This document shows positions 3,807-15,387 of a stretch of DNA of 64,000 nt, piece by piece. A model generated the notes under the pieces. That model was not told the DNA's origin. It saw only the letters and a list, made by a program, of their open reading frames with translations, and made no database searches. Position numbers and translations under genes: made by a program. This DNA comes from Tropicimonas sp. IMCC34043 (GTDB taxonomy: Bacteria; Pseudomonadota; Alphaproteobacteria; Rhodobacterales; Rhodobacteraceae). Each line of letters opens with the position of its first letter. The stretch's first letter is position 1. The stretch lies in contig NZ_QMEK01000007.1 of assembly GCF_003390845.1 (NCBI RefSeq), positions 62,001 to 126,000 on the forward strand. The letters run 5' to 3'.

Positions 3807-6281
3807 TCAGCCTGCCGGCTGGCTGAACACCGTCACCGGCGGCAGAACCCCGCTGTAGCGTTCGACATCGGCCATGGCGGTGTGGCCGCAGTTGCCCTGC
3901 GCCAAACGCGAGGTCGCCACCCCGGTGGTCAGGGTGTTGACGTCGCCATAGGCGTCAAGGCTGCCGATCTCGCGCGGATTGACCGGGTCGAACCAGCCGC
4001 CCTCGTTGATGCGGATCACACCGGGCCGGATCTGGTCGGTCACGATCAGCCCGGTCAGGATCTGGCCACGGTCGTTGAACACCCGCACCACGTCGCCATC
4101 CGACAGCCCCCGTTCGGCGGCATCGGCCGGGTTCATCCAGCACGGCTCGCGCCCCGCAACCGCATAGCTTTCGCGGTTCACGGTGCCGCAAAGCTGCGAA
4201 TGCAGCCGCATCTGCGGGTGGTTCGCGGCCACATGCAGCGGATATTTGGTGTCCGGCCCGCCCAGACGTTCGATCGGTTCGATCCAGGTCGCGTGCGGCG
4301 GGCAATCGTCATAATCGTATTTCGCGATTGCCGTGGAATAGAGCTCGAACTTGCCCGACGCGGTGCCAAGCGCGTTCAGCAACGGGTCCTCGCGGAAGGA
4401 CGCGTGACGCACGAATTCTGCCTGCGCCTCGCTCAGCGGGAATTCGAGCGGCTTGTTGCCCTCCCAGAACACCTCGAACACCGGCATTTCCATGCCTTTC
4501 GCGCGGGATTCGATCTTGGCGGATTCATAGATGCCGCGGATCCAGTCCATCTCGCTCAACCCTTGGGAATAGGCATAGCCAACCCCGAGCTTTTCCGAGA
4601 TCGCCCCGAAGATGTCGAAATCGCTGCGCGCCTCGAACACCGGTTCGATGATCTTCTTCATCGGGACGATATGGCTGATGGCATAGTCGCCGACCTGTTC
4701 GATGTCGTTGCGCTCGTAGGATGTGGTCGCGGGCAGCACGATATCGGCGTGGCGCGCCGAGGCCGTCCATTGCACGTCCTGCACGATGAAGGTGTCCAGC
4801 TCGCGCCAGGCGCGCAGCATCTCGTTGCGGTTCTGGTGATGCGAGAACGGGTTGCCGCCGACCCAATAGGCCATCTTGATCAGCGGCAGCTCGATCTCGC
4901 GGCCGTTGAACTGCATGATCTTGCCGGGGTTCAGCAGCGTTTCGACGAACCGCGACACCGGGATCGACACCGCCCCGCTCTGCGCAAGCCAGGCCGCGCC
5001 CTCGGCCACCTGACCCGAGGCATCGTCGATCGACTTCAGGATCGGCGTCGTGTGGGTCGGCGCACCGCCCGAGGCATAGTGGTAGCTGAGGCCATAGCCG
5101 CCGCCCGGCAGACCGATCTGCCCCAGCATCGAGGCCAGCGTGATCAGCATCCAGTGAACCTGTTCGCCATGGTGCTGGCGCTGGGTCGAGAAGCCGAGGG
5201 CCAGCATGGTCCGTTTCGCGGCAAATTCCCGCGCCAGACCGCGCAGCGTCTCGGCCGGAATGCCGCTGATCCCCGCGGCCCAGTCGGCCGTCTTCGGGGT
5301 GCCATCGGTCTGCCCCAGCAGATAGGGCAGGAACTTGTCAAAGCCGGTGGTGTAGCGGTCGAGAAAGGCCTGATCGTGCAGCCCCTCGTCATAAAGCGTA
5401 TAGGCGATCCCCAGCATCATCGCGACATCGGTCTGCGGCCGCGGGGCCAGCCAGTCGCCGTTCAGCGCCTCGCAGGTCTCGGTCCGCACCGGGTCGATGC
5501 AAAGCACCTTGGTGCCCGCCGCCTTCATCAGCGCGATGCCCGGCCAGGCACCGTGATCGGCGATCTGCCACGAGATCTGCGAATTGTTCAGCGGGTTGCA
5601 GCCCCAGAACACCATCAGTTCGCAGTTCTCGGCCAGGTTCTGCCAGGTGGTGCATTGCTCATAGACTTCGAGCGAGCCCGAGACATAGGGCAGGATCACC
5701 TGTGCCGCACCGGTCGAATAATCGCCGGTGCTGTTGGTATAGCTGCCCGTCAGGTTCAGCATCCGCCGCATGAGGGTCTGGCAATTGTGCAGCTTCCCCG
5801 GGCTTTTCCAGCCATAGGAGCCGGCGAACACCGCCTGCTGGCCATAGGTTTCGCGGATGCGGGTGATCTCGCCCGCGACCAGTTCGACCGCCTGATCCCA
5901 GCTGACGCGGACGAAATCGCCCGTCCCGCGCCCGTCGGGGTCGGCGCCCGGGCCTTGCTCAAGCCAGGCGCGGCGCACCATGGGATAGCGGATGCGGGAT
6001 TCCGAATAGACCGAGTCGAGAATGCCGGGAAGCTGCGGCGAGGGCGCCGGGTCGCCTTCCCACGGCACGAATTCGACCGCGCGGCCATCCTCGACATTGC
6101 CGTAGAACACCCCCCAGTGGCTGCCCGACAGGATGCCCTTCTGCGCGCTCTGCGCAAGCGCGCCGCGGGCCAGCAGCGACAGACCGGAAAAGCCGAGCGC
6201 TGCCGCCGCCGCCGATGTCTTGAGAAGGTTGCGCCTGGAAAGCGAAGGCCCTTGCGTGGTCATGGTCGAATTGCTGGTCAT
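3807..6281 (-). CDS. dorA: Periplasmic molybdopterin DMSO/TMAO reductase, DorA/TorA family
   Basis: An 824-residue terminal reductase that reduces DMSO or TMAO in the periplasm with a bis-molybdopterin guanine dinucleotide cofactor. A Tat signal is visible (SRRNLLK at 15-21, then an Ala-rich stretch ending ALAQ near 44). Ser189 in GDYSTGAA matches the serine ligand of molybdenum. GSYGWKSPG carries Tyr156 and Trp158, equivalent to the tyrosine and tryptophan of Rhodobacter DorA; the tyrosine is reported to be missing in enterobacterial TorA, which favours a DMSO-reducing enzyme. The start overlaps the chaperone stop by 4 bp (ATGA) and is preceded by AAGGA. An internal ATG at 6263 would also keep the Tat motif. 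Confidence 0.93.
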   Translation of the reverse strand: MTSNSTMTTQGPSLSRRNLLKTSAAAAALGFSGLSLLARGALAQSAQKGILSGSHWGVFYGNVEDGRAVEFVPWEGDPAPSPQLPGILDSVYSESRIRYPMVRRAWLEQGPGADPDGRGTGDFVRVSWDQAVELVAGEITRIRETYGQQAVFAGSYGWKSPGKLHNCQTLMRRMLNLTGSYTNSTGDYSTGAAQVILPYVSGSLEVYEQCTTWQNLAENCELMVFWGCNPLNNSQISWQIADHGAWPGIALMKAAGTKVLCIDPVRTETCEALNGDWLAPRPQTDVAMMLGIAYTLYDEGLHDQAFLDRYTTGFDKFLPYLLGQTDGTPKTADWAAGISGIPAETLRGLAREFAAKRTMLALGFSTQRQHHGEQVHWMLITLASMLGQIGLPGGGYGLSYHYASGGAPTHTTPILKSIDDASGQVAEGAAWLAQSGAVSIPVSRFVETLLNPGKIMQFNGREIELPLIKMAYWVGGNPFSHHQNRNEMLRAWRELDTFIVQDVQWTASARHADIVLPATTSYERNDIEQVGDYAISHIVPMKKIIEPVFEARSDFDIFGAISEKLGVGYAYSQGLSEMDWIRGIYESAKIESRAKGMEMPVFEVFWEGNKPLEFPLSEAQAEFVRHASFREDPLLNALGTASGKFELYSTAIAKYDYDDCPPHATWIEPIERLGGPDTKYPLHVAANHPQMRLHSQLCGTVNRESYAVAGREPCWMNPADAAERGLSDGDVVRVFNDRGQILTGLIVTDQIRPGVIRINEGGWFDPVNPREIGSLDAYGDVNTLTTGVATSRLAQGNCGHTAMADVERYSGVLPPVTVFSQPAG

Positions 6282-6952
6282 AGCCTGTCCTTTCCGAACG
6301 ATGTGGCGGCGGCCGCCATGTCACGATCGCCCGCCGCGGGGCGGTCCGGTGCGATCCTGTCGAGAAGCGCGATCAGCAACCGCGCCACATTGCCGTAATA
6401 TCCCGCGCCATCGGCCTCGATCAGCGCGGCCGCGAAGCGGTCCGTCCAGCCGGACATTTCGCGGTACAGGCCCGCCACACAATCGGGCCGGCCCTGACGC
6501 AGCGCTTCGGCCAGCGCCACAAGCTGAACCGCGACATGGTCGGGCGGCTCGGTGCAGAGGGCGTCGAGATGCACGTCGAGCGCGCGCAGGATGATGTTCA
6601 TGCGCCCGACCGCCGGACCCTGAAGCCGGCCGGTGCCATCCCACAGGCTGGCATAGGGCCCGATGCTGCGGCGCCGGAAAATGCCCTCGAACAGCGCAAC
6701 GTGGCGGCGTTGCAGCGCCACCGTGATCGCGGGCGCCGAGCCCGAGGCCAGAACCGCGCAGACCGCGTCTGTCGCCTGGGACTGGCCAAGGAATGTGCCG
6801 ATCGACTGCAGGGCGATCTGGCCCTGCATCGATCTGGCGGCCAGCACGCGGGCCTCGTCGGGCGGGGTCAGGAATTGCTGCGCCAGCCATTCCGCCACGA
6901 AGACAAGCTCTGGCACCTCGGATGGATCGATGTTCACGGTCAGGGTCATCAT
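6278..6952 (-). CDS. dorD: TorD/DorD-type cytoplasmic chaperone for the molybdoreductase
   Basis: A 224-residue all-helical protein of the TorD family. These chaperones bind the Tat signal of the apo-reductase and help cofactor insertion before export. The family is recognised from overall length, composition and the C-terminal helical region (about residues 120-200). Position supports it strongly: the start overlaps the cytochrome stop and the stop overlaps the reductase start, each by 4 bp, so the three genes are translationally coupled. Two adjacent ATG codons (6952 and 6949) are both possible starts. The sequence does not show any metal or heme motif. Confidence 0.85.
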   Translation of the reverse strand: MMTLTVNIDPSEVPELVFVAEWLAQQFLTPPDEARVLAARSMQGQIALQSIGTFLGQSQATDAVCAVLASGSAPAITVALQRRHVALFEGIFRRRSIGPYASLWDGTGRLQGPAVGRMNIILRALDVHLDALCTEPPDHVAVQLVALAEALRQGRPDCVAGLYREMSGWTDRFAAALIEADGAGYYGNVARLLIALLDRIAPDRPAAGDRDMAAAATSFGKDRL

Positions 6953-8577
6953 TCCACCGCCGTTTCGCCGTCGGCGTTGAGGTCCTTCGAATGGTTCTGC
7001 AGATAGGCCAGGATCAGGCGATACTGGTCGTCCGTGAACGAGGTGAACCGCTTCATCGAGTTGAGCGTGCCGACCCACTGGTTCGCCGTGAAATGCTCCT
7101 GCTGAGGCAGCACGTGGCAGGCGGCACAGGCCTTCTGATAGGTGTCCTGCCCATAGGACCACAGCGCCTGCCGGTTGGTGTTCAGATCGGCCGCATCCGA
7201 CCACAGCGTGATCTCGGCCGGCACCCAGACCTGCCCGGTATCGGCATCGGTCTCGGGCGCGCCGCGCACGACGGCCGCCGCGGCGGTATCGTCCAGCACC
7301 GCGGTCATCACCCGGTGTCCCTTGGACTGATAGACGACCGAGGGCGCATCCTCCATCTGCCAGCCCTTCAGCACCAGCTGCAGCTTGTCGCCGTCGCGCG
7401 CCGCGACGTTTACAAGCGCGCTGCCAAGCAGCTTGCCCTGCGCCGGGGTGTCGGTGCCAAGCGCCGCGCCATCGAGCCAGACGTTCTTGGTCGCGACCAC
7501 CGAGGCGTCGTCGTCTTGCGCGATCTCGGCCTCGGGCGAGGTCGGCAGGTTCGGCGCCGCCCGCACCACGTTCTCAAGCATGACGAGCTTGTTGGTCATG
7601 TTCGGCTCGGGCATCCCCGGCGCCGGTTTGTCGACGGCCGGCACATGCTTGAGATAGACCGCCATCGCCTGCAGGTCCGCGAACGGAAGCTGCGAGGTGT
7701 TCGCGATGATCTCGGCCATGTCGCCGTCCGAGGCGCGGCCAATCGGGCTGACCCCGGTGTGGAGGTAATTGGCAATCGCCGCCGGCGCCCAGAACCCGAT
7801 CCCGGTTTCGTCCGGCGTGATGTTGGGGACATAGAACGAGCCATCGGCGCTCGGCCCGCCCGCATAGCGCTCGGACCCGATGACGACGCCCATGGCGTTG
7901 CGGGGCGAGTGGCATTCGGCACAGTGGGCCGTGCTTTCGACCAGATACTGCCCGCGGTGGTATTGATCGGCATCGACGCCGTCGGGCACCGGACCCGGTT
8001 CGAGGGGCTTGCCGTCCAGGAACGCCAGCCGCCAGACCCCGACGCCGCGGCGCAGGTTGAACGGGAATTTAAGCTCGTGGGGCGGCGCAGCCTCGGCCAC
8101 CTCCGGCAGCGTCATGATATAGGCATAGAGGTCGCGGACATCGTCGCCCGACATGCGCTGGTAGGAGGTATAGGGGAAGGCCGGATACAGGTTCTGCCCG
8201 TCCGGCCACATCCCGCCGGGGCCGACACCCTCGCGCATCGCACGGTCGAATTCGGCCAGCGTCCATTTGCCGATCCCGGCGGTCTCGTCGGGCGAGATGT
8301 TGGGCATGTGGAAAATGCCGAATTCCGAGTCGAGCGCGCGGCCGCCGCCCAGAAGCGTGTCGTCGTCCTGGCCCTGTGTCATGTGGCAGGTGCCGCAGTC
8401 GGCGGTCAGATAGACGTTGCGTCCGTTCGCCAGATCGGCGCCGGCGATCTCGGGCAGATCGCGGCCGGGATGGGTCGCCGACCAGGTCCAGGGAGAGGTC
8501 AGGACCACGAACCCGAGCACACCCAGAAGGGCCGTGCCCCCCGCAATCCGGAATAGGGTATTGCGTCTTGTCGCCAT
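6949..8577 (-). CDS. Triheme membrane-anchored cytochrome c: diheme module fused to DorC/TorC C-terminal domain
   Basis: A 542-residue cytochrome with an N-terminal anchor (about residues 9-28) and three heme c motifs: CGTCH at 61-65, CAECH at 219-223 and CAACH at 484-488. The first 320 residues look like the diheme cytochrome subunit of membrane alcohol/gluconate dehydrogenases (repeated PNISPDET / PNITPDET segments). The last 200 residues resemble the C-terminal domain of DorC/TorC (HFTANQWVGTLNSMKRF near 495-511). The usual pentaheme NapC-like part of DorC is absent. It is the first gene of the operon, with AAGGAGG before the ATG, and is the likely electron donor to the reductase. Direct quinol oxidation by the N-terminal module is inference. 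Confidence 0.85.
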   Translation of the reverse strand: MATRRNTLFRIAGGTALLGVLGFVVLTSPWTWSATHPGRDLPEIAGADLANGRNVYLTADCGTCHMTQGQDDDTLLGGGRALDSEFGIFHMPNISPDETAGIGKWTLAEFDRAMREGVGPGGMWPDGQNLYPAFPYTSYQRMSGDDVRDLYAYIMTLPEVAEAAPPHELKFPFNLRRGVGVWRLAFLDGKPLEPGPVPDGVDADQYHRGQYLVESTAHCAECHSPRNAMGVVIGSERYAGGPSADGSFYVPNITPDETGIGFWAPAAIANYLHTGVSPIGRASDGDMAEIIANTSQLPFADLQAMAVYLKHVPAVDKPAPGMPEPNMTNKLVMLENVVRAAPNLPTSPEAEIAQDDDASVVATKNVWLDGAALGTDTPAQGKLLGSALVNVAARDGDKLQLVLKGWQMEDAPSVVYQSKGHRVMTAVLDDTAAAAVVRGAPETDADTGQVWVPAEITLWSDAADLNTNRQALWSYGQDTYQKACAACHVLPQQEHFTANQWVGTLNSMKRFTSFTDDQYRLILAYLQNHSKDLNADGETAVE

Positions 8578-8628: not shown

Positions 8629-8660
8629 GCGTTTTGCGGCGGGCCAAAGGCTTCAGGCTT

Positions 8661-8693
8661 GTGAATGAAATGTAAACGAGACGTGAAGTCGGC
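8661..8693. promoter_or_regulatory. Three 11-bp-spaced direct repeats, candidate DorR binding sites
   Basis: GTGAA, GTAAA and GTGAA begin at 8661, 8672 and 8683, a regular 11-bp spacing of one helical turn. OmpR-family regulators such as TorR/DorR typically bind tandem direct repeats with this period. The array sits in the divergent gap between the reductase operon and dorS, centred about 45-75 bp upstream of the predicted reductase-operon start site. Confidence 0.5.
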
Positions 8694-8810
8694 CCGACCC
8701 CTGACGGCTCCCCGGAATCGGGTTTCCGGTTGCCGCCGCGCTCGGGGTTTGAAAGATGCCGTGGAGTAAGGGAGTATCGGGCGGGAAATGACGTTTCAGG
8801 GAACATGCCG

Positions 8811-11126
8811 ATGATCTGGCCCGCCGAACGATTGTCGCGGATCCTGCGCAAAGAATGCGACCGGCTGGTCGACGAGATCGTGGGTCTTGCCCGGCAAAAG
8901 GGCTATGCCGACCAGACCAGTTCGCTGCGCGGCGCCTGGACCGAGTCGACCGAATGCCTGAACCTGTGTCTGGTGGGCTATCTTTCGGGGCCGCAGCACC
9001 ACGCGGGCCATGACGGCCACAACGATTACCGCAAGGACCCGCGCTTTGACCGGCTGCGCCAGATCGCGCAGACCCATCACGACGCCGGCGTGCCGCTGGA
9101 GCTGCACAACGGTCTGTTCAAGCTCTATCGCCGGGTCTATCTGGACCACTTTTCCGCGCTTCTGACGCTGCCCGGTCAGGACCCCGAGATGATGCTGGAG
9201 GCGCCAGAGACGTTCCTCGTGCGGATCGACGAGTTCTTCGACGAGGTCGAACTGGCGATGCTCGCACCCTGGGCCGCAACCGGCCCGCGGGATCTGGCCT
9301 TGGGCGAAAGCCTGCGGCGGCTGACCCGCGAACGCGACCGGTATTTTGCGGCGCTGGAAAGCCTGCGCATTCCCGTTTTCATCGCGACCGACAGCGGCCA
9401 GCTTGTCACCGCCAATCAGGCGGCGCTGCAGGCCTTTCTCGATCTGTCCGAGGCGGGCGCGCTGACCTATCGTCTGGCCCTGCAGCCGCACCGGGTCGAG
9501 CTGCAGGCCATCGTCGACGAGATCCTGCAGACCACCGGCAGCCAGTGGGACGCGATCTGGATGCAGACCCGCAGCAAGGGCCGCTGCTGTTTCGACATCC
9601 GGGTTCGCGTGGTCGAGGACGCCTCGCACAAGTTCGAAAGCTGGCAGATCATCCTGATGCACGACGTGACCGAACACCATCAGGCCGTGCGCGCCGCGCG
9701 CGACGCCGAACGCACGATGTCGCTGTTTCTGGCCGCCATGGCCCACGAGATCCGCGGCCCGCTGCACAGTGTCCTCGGCGCCGCCGGTCTGCTGAAGGGC
9801 GCCGACCCCGAGGAAAGCGAAAAGCTGGTCGAACTGCTGGACAGTTCGGCGCGGTCGCTGAACACGACGCTCGAAAATGTGCTGAACTTCTCGCGGTTCG
9901 AACATCAGGCGCCGCAGCCGCGCCCCGATACCGTCGATCTGCGGGCGGCCCTTGGCGATCTGCGCCAGGTCAAGGGCATCCTTGCCCGCCAGCAGGGCGT
10001 GCCGCTGCGCCTTGAGATCGCGCCCGAGGTGCCGGCTCTGGTGCGGCTCGACTGGTCGATGACCCAGCAGGTGCTGAGCAATCTGGTGCAGAATGCGCTG
10101 CGCCACGACGACGGGCGCGGGGTCACGATCAGCCTTGAGACCGACGCAGGCGCGCTGGTCTTTTGCATTGCCGATCACGGGCCGGGCCTGTCCGACGAGA
10201 TCTGCGCCCTGCTGAGCAGCGTCCCCGCCGAACTGCGGCCGCGCGCGACAGCGAAGGACGGCGCCGGGCTTGGCCTTGCCATCGCGCAGCGGATGACGCT
10301 GGCGCTTGGCGGCAGCATCAAGGCCCTCGATGCCGACGAGGGCGCGACCATCGAGGTCCGCCTGCCCCTCGTCGCGACCGAGGCCACCGAGCCGCCGCGG
10401 CGCTCCGCGCCGCTCGACCGCCGGCTCGACCAGAGCTGCCTGCTGGTCGATGACGATCCGATCAATGCGCTGGTCACCATCGCCATGCTCGAACGCCTCG
10501 GCCTTTCGGTCGATCATGCCCACAGCATCGGTCAGGCGCAGGCGCTTTGCCTGGCCGCCTCGCAAAGCTATGACCTGTTCATCCTCGATTATCGTCTGCC
10601 CGACGGCACCGGGGCCGACCTTGCCCGCCAGCTTCGCCGCGATCCCGCGCTGCGCGACGCGCCGATCCTGCTGCTCAGCGCGAATGTCGACTGGGTCCGG
10701 CAATCGCCCGAGGATGTCGGCCTGTTCACCGCGCTGCTCGACAAGCCGCTCGATGCCCGAGCGCTGGCCCGCGCCATCCAGGGGGCGACCCGGCCGCCCG
10801 CCGGGCTGCTCGACGGGCTGTCACCGGCGGTTCAGCGCAAGATGGCCGCGGCCTTCACCGAAAGCTGGTCGGCGTTCCGCCCCCTGCTGAGCAATGCCAG
10901 CCCCGATGGCCCGGACGCCGCGATTGCCGGACATGCCCACAAGCTGGTCAGCGGCGCCAAGATTTTCGGTCTGGCCGAGATCGCTGCGGCGCTGCAACGG
11001 CTTGAGGGCGTGCATTCGGACCCCGCCGCGGATGCCGCATTGCGGGCCGCGGCCCATGGCGCGGCGCTGGCCTGCACCTTGCCGGCCGACTGGGCCGACC
11101 GGCTCGAAGGCGCCCCCCTGACATGA
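8811..11126 (+). CDS. dorS: Hybrid sensor histidine kinase, DorS-like (PAS-HisKA-HATPase-REC-HPt)
   Basis: A 771-residue tripartite kinase. Order: an N-terminal helical region (1-150) with a His-rich stretch (HHAGHDGH at 63-70), a PAS-like region (about 175-290), HisKA with phospho-accepting His312 in AMAHEIRGP, HATPase (GAGLGLA at 484-490), a receiver with Asp593 and Lys645, and a C-terminal HPt domain with His710 in AHKLVSGAK. No membrane segment is visible, so the input is probably cytoplasmic. The ATG at 8811 has AGGGA at an 8-bp spacing; the ATG at 8805 is too close to it. The last codon overlaps dorR (ATGA). The role in TMAO/DMSO-dependent induction is inferred from the neighbouring reductase operon. 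Confidence 0.85.
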   Translation: MIWPAERLSRILRKECDRLVDEIVGLARQKGYADQTSSLRGAWTESTECLNLCLVGYLSGPQHHAGHDGHNDYRKDPRFDRLRQIAQTHHDAGVPLELHNGLFKLYRRVYLDHFSALLTLPGQDPEMMLEAPETFLVRIDEFFDEVELAMLAPWAATGPRDLALGESLRRLTRERDRYFAALESLRIPVFIATDSGQLVTANQAALQAFLDLSEAGALTYRLALQPHRVELQAIVDEILQTTGSQWDAIWMQTRSKGRCCFDIRVRVVEDASHKFESWQIILMHDVTEHHQAVRAARDAERTMSLFLAAMAHEIRGPLHSVLGAAGLLKGADPEESEKLVELLDSSARSLNTTLENVLNFSRFEHQAPQPRPDTVDLRAALGDLRQVKGILARQQGVPLRLEIAPEVPALVRLDWSMTQQVLSNLVQNALRHDDGRGVTISLETDAGALVFCIADHGPGLSDEICALLSSVPAELRPRATAKDGAGLGLAIAQRMTLALGGSIKALDADEGATIEVRLPLVATEATEPPRRSAPLDRRLDQSCLLVDDDPINALVTIAMLERLGLSVDHAHSIGQAQALCLAASQSYDLFILDYRLPDGTGADLARQLRRDPALRDAPILLLSANVDWVRQSPEDVGLFTALLDKPLDARALARAIQGATRPPAGLLDGLSPAVQRKMAAAFTESWSAFRPLLSNASPDGPDAAIAGHAHKLVSGAKIFGLAEIAAALQRLEGVHSDPAADAALRAAAHGAALACTLPADWADRLEGAPLT

Positions 11127-11815
11127 CCGAAGCCGCCGAAATCCTGCTCGTGGACGACGATGTGCTGATCCAGCTCATGGTCGAGGATGTGGTGACCCAA
11201 TTGGGCCACCGCTTCACCTGCGCGGGCGATGGCGCCTCGGCGCGCGAGGCGCTGACCGCCGGGCATTTCGATCTGGTCATCCTCGACCGGCGTCTGCCAG
11301 ACACCGATGGGCTGCTGCTGGCGCAGGCGATCCAGGCCGAGGCGAAATCGCCCTTCATCGTGCTGTCGAGCCTTGGCTCGCCCGACGATCAGGTGCTGGG
11401 CCTCGGGCTTGGCGCGCTCGATTACATCTGCAAGCCGGTCGAACCCGCGGTGCTGCGCGCCCGTATCGAACGGCACGTCGCGGTGCGGCGGGCGCCGAGC
11501 GACGAGGCAATCGTCGCCGTCGGTTCCAGATTGCGGCTGAACGTCCTGACCCGGCGGCTGTCGGTCGCCGGGCGGACCGAGGTGCTGTCGCCGGCCGAAA
11601 CCCGGCTTCTGGTCTGCCTGATCCGCGCGCTTGGCCAGCCGCTCGACCGGGCCGGGATGAGCATGGCGATCTGCGGCCGCGAATGGGTCTATGGCGACCG
11701 CACGGTCGATGTCCTCGTTTCGCGGCTGCGCCGCCGGCTGCGCGGCAGCAAGTGCGGGATCGTCACCGTGCATGGCATCGGCTATATCCTGACCGAGGAT
11801 GAGCCGGCGGATTAG
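11123..11815 (+). CDS. dorR: OmpR-family response regulator, DorR-like
   Basis: A 230-residue regulator with a receiver domain (phospho-acceptor Asp55, conserved Lys104) and an OmpR/PhoB winged-helix DNA-binding domain (about 130-225, ending with RTVDVLVSRLRRRL and GIGYIL). It is translationally coupled to the hybrid kinase. Its probable target is the divergent cytochrome-chaperone-reductase operon, where 11-bp-spaced direct repeats fit this family. The acidic pocket at 11-13 (DDD) is intact. Confidence 0.9.
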   Translation: MTEAAEILLVDDDVLIQLMVEDVVTQLGHRFTCAGDGASAREALTAGHFDLVILDRRLPDTDGLLLAQAIQAEAKSPFIVLSSLGSPDDQVLGLGLGALDYICKPVEPAVLRARIERHVAVRRAPSDEAIVAVGSRLRLNVLTRRLSVAGRTEVLSPAETRLLVCLIRALGQPLDRAGMSMAICGREWVYGDRTVDVLVSRLRRRLRGSKCGIVTVHGIGYILTEDEPAD

Positions 11816-12864: not shown

Positions 12865-15387
12865 TCAGGGAACTGTCGAAAGCTGGAACCAGGTATCGAG
12901 GAATTTCGATTTCTTCAGCCCGTCCCGAAATGCCAGCAGCTCGGGGCCAAGCGCGATTTCCTGCAGGTTGAGGTTATAGGCAGACTGGCCCAGATCGCAG
13001 CTGACGGCGGGGGCGGGAAACGGACGGTCGAGCAGGACCTCAAGCTGGCCTGCCGCCGCATCGGGAAACCGCGCCTGACCGGGGACAAGGACGGTCCAGG
13101 GCGAGGCGATGATATAGTCGCTGGGGCAGATCACCGCGACGCCCGCCGCGTGCAAAGGTGCCGGGTCGATCGCCGACCATGGCACGTTATAGGCGATGTC
13201 GATCCGGCCCGCCGCGATGGCCGCGACCAGATCGCGGGGATGGGCGAACACCTGCCCCTCGGTCAACCCGATGGCGCGGGCGATGCGCCAGAACAGCGGC
13301 GAGCGTTCGGAATCCTGCGTGGCAAAGACATAGGACAGCGCGTCGATCCCGATATTGACCACCCCGACCCGGCCACGGAACCGGTCCGGGTCGCGTTCGA
13401 GGGTCGAGATCAGTTCGCGCCGCGTCGTCGGTGGCGCCTCGGACCCGAAGGCCCCGGGCCGGACCAGCATCAGCGCGGGGTCGAGCCCGAGCTTGAAGAT
13501 CTCGCCACGCCAATGGGCATCGGCGGCAAGGTCGCGCCGCCGCACCACATCGGGCAGCGCCAGAAGATAGCCCTCGTTGGCCAGAAGCACGCTCAGATCC
13601 GGGGCATCGAGCACCACAAGATCGGCCTTGTTGCCGCCCGCAACCATGCCGATCACCCGCGAGGTCGCGTCGCTGGCAAACATCGGCAGCAGGCGAAAGC
13701 CCTCGGCCAGTGCCGGGATATGAAAGCTGTCGGCGTGGACGGCGTTGAAGGGAACGACCAGCGTCGGCTCGCCCGCAGCCCCCTGCGCGGCGGCGGGACG
13801 GGCCGCACCGAACGGCAGCGCCAGCATCAGGCCCAAGGCAATAAGCGACAGGACCTGACCGGAAAGCCCCGCCCCATCGGGCAGGACCGGCAGGCTGATC
13901 CGGGCGGTCAGCCCGCGGTTCGCATTCGATTGCAGCGTGATGTCGCCGCCGCTGGCGCGCGCCACCTTGCGGGCAATCGACAGGCCAAGCCCGGTTCCCC
14001 GCTGCCCGGCCGACGTGCTGTAGAACCGCTCGAACACCACCTCGCGCAGCGCGGGCGGAATGCCCGGGCCGCGGTCCGAGACGCAGATCGTCACCATGCC
14101 CGCCGCGCGCGCCAGCGCGATCCGCACCGGGCCGTCGGCGGCATGGGTCAGGGCGTTTTCGACCACGTTGACCAGCATTTCGCGCAACGACAGCGGATCG
14201 GCCAGAACCCGCAGCCGGGCGAGCTCGGGGCCTGCGTCAACCGTGATCTCGCGGCCCTCCTGCAACGCCATGCGCTCGGCGATCTCGACCGCCAGGTCGG
14301 CGACGGCGACCGGCGCCTTGGCCTTGGTCTCTAACCTGTGCAGCACCGTGGCGTCGCCAAGCAAACGGTTCGCGAGCGAGCCGGCCGACTTGGCGTTCTG
14401 CAAGATCCGCTCCAGCCGCCGCCGCACGCCCGGATCGTCGCATTCATCGAGCGCCACCTCGGCCTGCGACCGGATCGCGGCGAGCGGCGTGCGAAGCTGA
14501 TGCGCGGCATCCGCGATGACGGATTTCAACCCGTCGAGCGTTGCGGCAAGCCGGTGCATGAAATCGTTGAACCCGGCGAACAGGGTCTGCACCTCGGCCG
14601 GGGCCGGGTTGTCGAGCGGGGTCAGGTTCTCGGACGAGCGCGCCCGGATCGAGCTTTCGATCTGGCGCAAGGGCGCCAGGCTGGTCGCCACCGCGATCAC
14701 GATCAGCCCGAAGGCCGCGACCGCCAGCACGATGACCGGAATGATCGCGTTGCGCGTCAGGGTGCGGGCCAGATCGACCCGCGCCTCGCGGGTCTCGCCC
14801 ACCATGATTGTGACCCAGCCCGACGAGGCCAGCCCCGCCCGATACCGGCTGACAACCGCCAGCCGCACCGCCTGCCCGCGATAGCTGCTGTCGATCACCT
14901 GCGTGCCGCCGCGCGAGGGCAACGGCACCTCGAGTCCCAGCGTCGGCGAGCCGGTCACAAGGCGGCCGTGGTGATCGACGACGCGATAGAACACCCGGTT
15001 CAGCCGCGAGGTGCCAAGGATCGCGAAGGCCGAAAACGGGATGTCGACCGACACCGCATCGCCGTCGAATTCGAGCGTGTCGGCAATCGAATAGGCGGAG
15101 GCCACCAGCACATTGTCGAACGCGCGGTCGGCGGCGCGCAGGGCAAAGCGGTCGGCGACCAGCAGCAGCACGAGGACCGCGAGCAGCAGGAACAGCAACG
15201 CGCCGGTCAGCAGCCGGATACGGATCGAGCCGGCCCAGGCGCGCCCGATGCGCAGGTGCCAGCCCGTGCCCGGCCCTGCGGTTTCAGGCTCAGCCGAGGT
15301 AATAGCCGACCCCCCGCTGGGTCTGGATGCCGACGCTCGACCCCGACAGCTTGCGGCGCAGGCGCGAGACCAGCAATTCGACCGCAT
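12865..15387 (-). CDS. Sensor histidine kinase fused to a C-terminal periplasmic solute-binding domain
   Basis: One uninterrupted frame of up to 840 residues. Membrane segment 1 (about 59-78), a periplasmic TctE-like N-terminal sensor (80-210), membrane segment 2 (213-235), HAMP, HisKA with His296 in AHQLRTP, and HATPase (GTGLGLS at 464-470) come first. A third membrane segment (about 509-528) follows, then a binding-protein domain (538-840) of the iron/AfuA-like type that would face the periplasm. The start is unclear: the ATG at 15387 overlaps the regulator gene by 98 bp and no other ATG, GTG or TTG precedes membrane segment 1. Ligand unknown. It is probably the partner of the preceding OmpR-type regulator. 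Confidence 0.8.
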   Translation of the reverse strand: MRSNCWSRACAASCRGRASASRPSGGSAITSAEPETAGPGTGWHLRIGRAWAGSIRIRLLTGALLFLLLAVLVLLLVADRFALRAADRAFDNVLVASAYSIADTLEFDGDAVSVDIPFSAFAILGTSRLNRVFYRVVDHHGRLVTGSPTLGLEVPLPSRGGTQVIDSSYRGQAVRLAVVSRYRAGLASSGWVTIMVGETREARVDLARTLTRNAIIPVIVLAVAAFGLIVIAVATSLAPLRQIESSIRARSSENLTPLDNPAPAEVQTLFAGFNDFMHRLAATLDGLKSVIADAAHQLRTPLAAIRSQAEVALDECDDPGVRRRLERILQNAKSAGSLANRLLGDATVLHRLETKAKAPVAVADLAVEIAERMALQEGREITVDAGPELARLRVLADPLSLREMLVNVVENALTHAADGPVRIALARAAGMVTICVSDRGPGIPPALREVVFERFYSTSAGQRGTGLGLSIARKVARASGGDITLQSNANRGLTARISLPVLPDGAGLSGQVLSLIALGLMLALPFGAARPAAAQGAAGEPTLVVPFNAVHADSFHIPALAEGFRLLPMFASDATSRVIGMVAGGNKADLVVLDAPDLSVLLANEGYLLALPDVVRRRDLAADAHWRGEIFKLGLDPALMLVRPGAFGSEAPPTTRRELISTLERDPDRFRGRVGVVNIGIDALSYVFATQDSERSPLFWRIARAIGLTEGQVFAHPRDLVAAIAAGRIDIAYNVPWSAIDPAPLHAAGVAVICPSDYIIASPWTVLVPGQARFPDAAAGQLEVLLDRPFPAPAVSCDLGQSAYNLNLQEIALGPELLAFRDGLKKSKFLDTWFQLSTVP

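Follow-up and report, generated by a model that had tools for sequence, protein, structure and literature searches.

The DMSO/TMAO reductase operon described here opens with a hybrid triheme cytochrome that is a real and conserved domain swap of single origin. It lies in a stretch of 64,000 nucleotides from Tropicimonas sp. IMCC34043, hereafter the window. TorC/DorC, the cytochrome normally expected at this position, belongs to the NapC/NirT family of quinol dehydrogenases and is one of its textbook examples. In the hybrid, the hinge and monoheme domain of DorC are retained, and the NapC/NirT tetraheme module has been exchanged for a membrane-anchored diheme module. The hybrid very probably serves the reductase DorA in place of DorC, because the TorC-type domain is kept, the gene sits in the operon and an alternative is absent. 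On balance, we lean towards reading it as a three-heme conduit, anchored in the membrane, that takes the place of DorC, oxidises ubiquinol directly and passes the electrons to DorA. The relevant features, in window positions, are as follows.

6949..8577, minus strand: hybrid triheme cytochrome c, DorC replacement (open reading frame, TIGR02162, phmmer, CXXCH motifs and hydropathy).
7633..8439, minus strand: diheme module, residues 47–315 (phmmer, N-module tree).
6970..7503, minus strand: TorC/DorC-derived hinge and C-terminal monoheme domain, residues 359–536 (TIGR02162, C-module tree).
6281..6952, minus strand: TorD/DorD-like chaperone, start codon uncertain (PF02613, E 4.8e-11; NF003442 TorD, E 1.2e-10, below cut-off).
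3807..6281, minus strand: DorA-type DMSO/TMAO reductase of the BisC/TorA family, with Tat signal and molybdopterin domains (best PDB match 1e18_A).
8660..8687, minus strand: three direct repeats TTCAC/TTTACA/TTCACA, spaced by ~11 bp, in the divergent promoter; putative binding site of the response regulator.
8730..11126 (start near 8808 possible), plus strand: TorS/DorS-like hybrid histidine kinase (domain matches; no membrane helix by hydropathy).
11123..11815, plus strand: OmpR-type response regulator, TorR/DorR-like by position (domain matches).

From 8577 downwards, the minus strand carries the genes for the hybrid cytochrome, the TorD-like chaperone and the DorA-type reductase, in this order; the kinase and the OmpR-type regulator start across the divergent promoter on the plus strand. 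The cytochrome gene is a single uninterrupted reading frame of 542 amino acids. Its product has three CXXCH motifs, at residues 61 (CGTCH), 219 (CAECH) and 484 (CAACH), and the segment HFTANQW begins at residue 495; 30 comparison TorC/DorC proteins have five such motifs. Hydropathy predicts one membrane helix, at the N-terminus (residues ~8–29).

The TorC match covers the C-terminal half only, and the dehydrogenase-cytochrome match the N-terminal half only. Positions 210–385 of the 387 in the NCBIfam TorC model TIGR02162 align with residues 359–536 (E 9.2e-41). The total score of 140.4 bits falls short of the 478.2 bits that the family requires, which would be expected if the N-terminal half of TorC is absent; PF03264 (NapC/NirT) has no match in the hybrid at E 0.01. 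In the N-terminal half, residues 47–315 match the cytochrome subunit of fructose dehydrogenase (7w2j_C, E 6.7e-56; phmmer against PDB sequences), and the cytochrome subunits of glucose, aldehyde and alcohol dehydrogenases are also found in this way. These matches end at residue 318, and the TorC-type part begins at 359. Residues 359–536 are assigned to hinge plus monoheme domain because the domain limits of E. coli TorC place the hinge before the monoheme domain (PMC11727998).

An initial annotation of this DNA had proposed that the monoheme domain of DorC was kept and its pentaheme part replaced by a diheme module like those of alcohol/gluconate dehydrogenases. The kept domain is borne out by the TIGR02162 alignment, and it nests among TorC C-terminal domains. 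The N-terminal swap to a diheme module likewise stands; the part lost is the tetraheme NapC/NirT domain, however, since ‘pentaheme’ describes the whole of DorC. As for the dehydrogenase likeness, the homology holds, but in the tree the module falls among free-standing diheme cytochromes and apart from the dehydrogenase trihemes.

Like the pentaheme TorC/DorC proteins of TIGR02162, the hybrid has an N-terminal membrane anchor, a hinge and a C-terminal monoheme domain; its gene is likewise in an operon with torD and torA, and some loci have the same type of promoter repeat. It differs in lacking the NapC/NirT tetraheme domain and in having three hemes rather than five. The free-standing dihemes, of ~300 amino acids, are 37–46% identical to the hybrid's module, which is sister to them or nested among them in the N-module tree, and many share the N-terminal anchor. 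Unlike the 542-residue, three-heme hybrid, they stop after the second heme domain and lack a TorC-type domain. The dehydrogenase trihemes (7w2j_C, 8hdd_B, 8gy2_B and 8gy3_A) are homologous to the hybrid in the first two heme domains; in the hybrid, by contrast, the third is of TorC type, the tree branch is separate and a dehydrogenase subunit does not adjoin. Its neighbours are TorD, DorA and the two-component pair, with no dehydrogenase catalytic subunit among them.

The distribution of the fusion was surveyed with the C-terminal half of the hybrid as query and a threshold of E <= 1e-10. Matches were found in 11 of the 295 genomes sampled from the same family (18 at 1e-3, the seven extra being weak cytochrome matches), in 6 of 385 sampled from the class and in 24 of 398 from the phylum. 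These samples overlap, which leaves 36 different genomes; the architecture was viewed in 31 of them, that is, all except G886, G960, G964, G966 and G981. Four of the 31 have the hybrid: the window genome (G000), G130, G091 and G897, the last from outside the class. At least one pentaheme protein is present in 26, and G986 has only a monoheme protein in the stretch examined. A monoheme TorC-type frame also occurs in a genome of the window's genus (G007; L086 5015-5746, minus strand): 244 amino acids with one CXXCH, matching TorC 228-383. It lies directly after torA, with a pentaheme protein upstream in the same operon, and is thus a second TorC-type protein.

In the plasmid collection, 672 records match the hybrid somewhere, mostly through the N-module alone, and eight cover at least 80% of the query. 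Seven of these eight were examined (all but H7); plasmid hybrids occur in Azospirillum brasilense, Rhodovulum sulfidophilum (two), Rhodovulum sp. MB263, Cereibacter azotoformans, Cereibacter sphaeroides and Neorhizobium. A further hybrid, in Azorhizobium oxalatiphilum, was found by a scan of genome contigs. A match on a Burkholderia cenocepacia plasmid (H10/L074) was rejected as an ordinary triheme protein without a TorC-type domain. Twelve fusion loci, the window included, were examined; the fusion thus occurs in other Rhodobacterales and beyond, and torA adjoins it in 12 of 12. TorD is present at nine (not detected in L071, L072 and L077) and a kinase-regulator pair at six. The databases name these proteins ‘c-type cytochrome’, ‘cytochrome c’ or, in R. 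sulfidophilum, cycG, and no published account of the fusion was found in the open-access literature on TorC/DorC variants.

By the terms of the initial annotation, a separate intact pentaheme DorC that serves the reductase from elsewhere would have spoken against its reading. Across the whole window genome (16 contigs, completeness listed as 100), PF03264 has no match, the E. coli control being positive; a hidden pentaheme DorC is absent because no NapC/NirT-domain protein was found there. The TorC-type C-terminal domain was found only once in this genome. The hybrid-bearing G091 and A. oxalatiphilum (G1023) also gave no PF03264 match. In G130 and G897, one PF03264 protein each is encoded on a different contig from the hybrid, and no second TorC-type C-terminal domain was found in either genome; the pentaheme-bearing G051 and G210 have two PF03264 proteins each.

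In the N-module tree (47 rows), ten hybrids form one clade with support 100/99. A branch supported at 95/97 holds these ten and 30 free-standing dihemes but none of the six dehydrogenase trihemes; one distant diheme, the outgroup, lies outside it. The hybrids' sister is a group of three dihemes (support 82/88). In Rhizobium and Roseomonas, where these three (L118, L119 and L120) occur, they have cytochrome c oxidase genes as neighbours. The C-module tree, with 42 rows (10 hybrid, 30 pentaheme and 2 monoheme), likewise places all its hybrids in a single clade (100/99). In the TorA tree, built from 38 rows by a quick method, the hybrid-linked reductases also fall together (SH-aLRT 100); the pentaheme-linked reductase of G051 stands next to them (93), with other pentaheme-linked reductases of the class around. 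The trees omit L072 (near copy of L071), L151 (the plasmid locus of R. sulfidophilum DSM 1374, near copy of L070) and duplicates of the window locus.

Because the hybrids form one clade in all three trees, the module swap probably happened once and then travelled with the operon. The simplest history consistent with these sequences would start from an alphaproteobacterial pentaheme dor operon, in which the tetraheme module was exchanged once for a diheme module; in the same simplest history, the hybrid operon afterwards moved across orders, partly via plasmids.

Replacement of the axial methionine of heme 1 by phenylalanine (YPAMPY to YPAFPY) was considered as a signature of the hybrids and rejected, as phenylalanine is also found in 19 of 30 dihemes and two of six trihemes. 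Another methionine, at residue 91 (‘MPN’; window about 8305-8307, minus strand), is shared by 10 of 10 hybrids and occurs in 0 of 30 dihemes and 0 of 6 trihemes; at a guess, it may be a heme-1 ligand.

The divergent promoter was compared among the six hybrid loci in which it faces a kinase gene. They have in common the repeats TTYAC, TTTACA and YTYACA at about 11 bp; the pattern was derived from these six promoters, so that its presence there is by construction. The remaining six hybrid loci, where no kinase gene adjoins, lack it. The independent part of the evidence is its occurrence in three of 31 comparison loci scanned (L086, L090 and L094), upstream of the pentaheme gene or torA. When each of five sources was shuffled 50 times at the mononucleotide level, the full pattern never appeared. 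A two-element form, picked after viewing the sequence, occurs once in the window against 0 expected (100 dinucleotide shuffles). We infer that the repeats are the regulator's site and were inherited from the pentaheme operon. A difference in membrane sensing by the kinases was tried and rejected: hydropathy indicates no membrane helix in the hybrid-linked kinases of the window, L069, L070, L075 and L076, and five kinases near pentaheme operons likewise lack one.

The reductase itself resembles ordinary DorA. Its nearest PDB sequences are the DMSO reductases 1e18, 1e60 and 1dmr (>1160 bits), and TMAO reductases score lower (7l5i 865, 9h4t 787 and 1tmo 695 bits). Three other reductases of the same family, with 38–42% identity, are encoded in the window genome. 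Among hybrid-linked reductases, 10 of 10 have the SYGW segment and 10 of 10 the GDYS-motif serine (GNYS in Azorhizobium); we take these to be the active-site Tyr/Trp and the molybdenum ligand, respectively.

Delivery of electrons to DorA is suggested by the homology of the hybrid's C-terminal part to the TorC domain. In E. coli, this domain is the proposed donor to TorA; TorC-N binds TorA tightly and the C-terminal half does not (PMC11727998). Since the tight-binding half is missing here, the hybrid must dock differently, through a rebuilt interface. In the reductases, 37 positions are conserved among those linked to hybrids and nearly absent from the eight nearest pentaheme-linked ones; these are candidate residues of such an interface, or may reflect plain descent. 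As the hybrid clade shows, the C-terminal domain of TorC can be carried over to a new partner module as a portable plug for DorA/TorA. Nature has here also set up a test of which TorC half docking needs, since the work on E. coli assigned docking to the very half that is missing. A structure prediction for the hybrid, from a two-row alignment, reached a mean pLDDT of 32.1 and is unusable; a quinone site was not identified in the hybrid, which counts against direct oxidation of quinol.

The hybrid surely differs from DorC at the point of electron entry, and a different route from the quinone pool to the reductase, as initially predicted, is a good hypothesis, the enzyme being probably connected to respiration in another way. 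In the mechanism proposed here, ubiquinol would be oxidised at the membrane surface by hemes 1 and 2 of the diheme module; electrons would then pass to heme 3 in the DorC-type domain, to the molybdenum of DorA and finally to DMSO or TMAO. As with DorC, the path would be non-electrogenic. Ubiquinol as the direct donor is slightly favoured. For it speaks the hybrid's own N-terminal anchor, predicted by hydropathy and expected of a quinol-facing protein. Residues conserved in the hybrids and rare in the 30 free-standing dihemes reach their highest density around the anchor and the juxtamembrane stretch, where they make up 7 of 11 conserved positions (26 of 141 elsewhere, or 7/46, 6/38 and 13/57 in the other three stretches), a signal that may only stem from the variability of that stretch in dihemes. 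Ubiquinol oxidation has been reported for a quinoprotein alcohol dehydrogenase complex. To our knowledge, the fold of the diheme module is known only from quinone-reducing dehydrogenases; if the module did oxidise ubiquinol, that fold would here serve as a quinol dehydrogenase.

Alternatively, though this is rather unlikely, the diheme module may receive its electrons from cytochrome bc1 or from a cytochrome c of the periplasm instead of from quinol, and hand them on to the DorC-type domain; if it drew on bc1, the energetics of DMSO respiration would be altered. The precedent is TorB (Cj0265) of Campylobacter jejuni, which, like the hybrid, has a TorC-type C-terminal domain without a NapC module and serves TorA; unlike the hybrid, it is a soluble, free monoheme protein that carries no additional module and receives its electrons from the Qcr complex (PMC6195509). 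The proximity of the nearest dihemes (82/88) to cytochrome c oxidase genes fits such a cytochrome c-type role and a role with quinol equally. The hemes of the related dehydrogenase cytochromes are of high potential, which would also suit this route: PMC6472588 tabulates 143, 259 and 545 for fructose dehydrogenase and 265–496 for alcohol dehydrogenase, values that are quoted here without their reference scale. Cytochrome c1 of the bc1 complex is present in six of six genomes tested, and its presence is therefore uninformative as a discriminator.

Against bc1 stand the poor energetics with a ubiquinol pool: ubiquinol (+90 mV) is argued to be unable to drive TMAO (+130 mV) reduction via bc1 against the proton-motive force (PMC6195509). 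The membrane anchor of the hybrid would, moreover, be superfluous for a soluble carrier. Menaquinone would make the energetics favourable, but there is no clear sign of its synthesis here: the window genome encodes a MenA-like protein above the TIGR00751 cut-off, MenD is below its own cut-off, and MqnA and MqnD have no match. Because of the MenA-like protein, a ubiquinone-only pool is not proven. The MenA-like prenyltransferase gene (G000:C5:1825154-1825849; L152 9005-9943, minus strand) adjoins BchE and bacteriochlorophyll-looking genes.

Less probable than the bc1 route, and indeed doubtful, is that the operon runs in reverse or in both directions, with DorA oxidising dimethyl sulfide and the hybrid carrying electrons to the quinone or cytochrome c pool. 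DorA has reverse activity, and the better-known relatives of the module are subunits of alcohol and sugar dehydrogenases, which feed electrons into the pool. The window organism is probably a phototroph, because its genome encodes BchE, and hybrids also occur in Rhodovulum and Cereibacter, both phototroph genera. It is conceivable, at a similarly low probability, that the swap went beyond exchanging one quinol dehydrogenase for another and gave the pathway a new direction or partner: DorA, often in phototrophic hosts, would then be reversible, oxidising dimethyl sulfide, with the electrons going through the hybrid to quinone or cytochrome c, as well as reducing DMSO/TMAO. The reductase, however, is of the ordinary DorA kind, with the YGW and GDYS-type motifs kept, and six of the 12 hybrids have the TorS/TorR-like pair and the promoter motif, which some pentaheme dor operons also have. 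That the hybrid is an assembly or annotation artefact, two unrelated genes fused, can practically be dismissed, as the frame is unbroken in the window and the same fusion recurs in 11 more loci from separate records.

The direct conduit from ubiquinol to DorA is thus the reading preferred here. Elsewhere in the window, at 12865-15387 on the minus strand, an open frame encodes 840 amino acids, the first 501 of which contain the domains of a sensor kinase (2CSK_N, HAMP, HisKA and HATPase). Its last ~340 residues have no Pfam match and start with a hydrophobic, signal-like segment. This C-terminal part looks like a periplasmic binding protein; a kinase and a binding domain in one frame would be an unusual combination.
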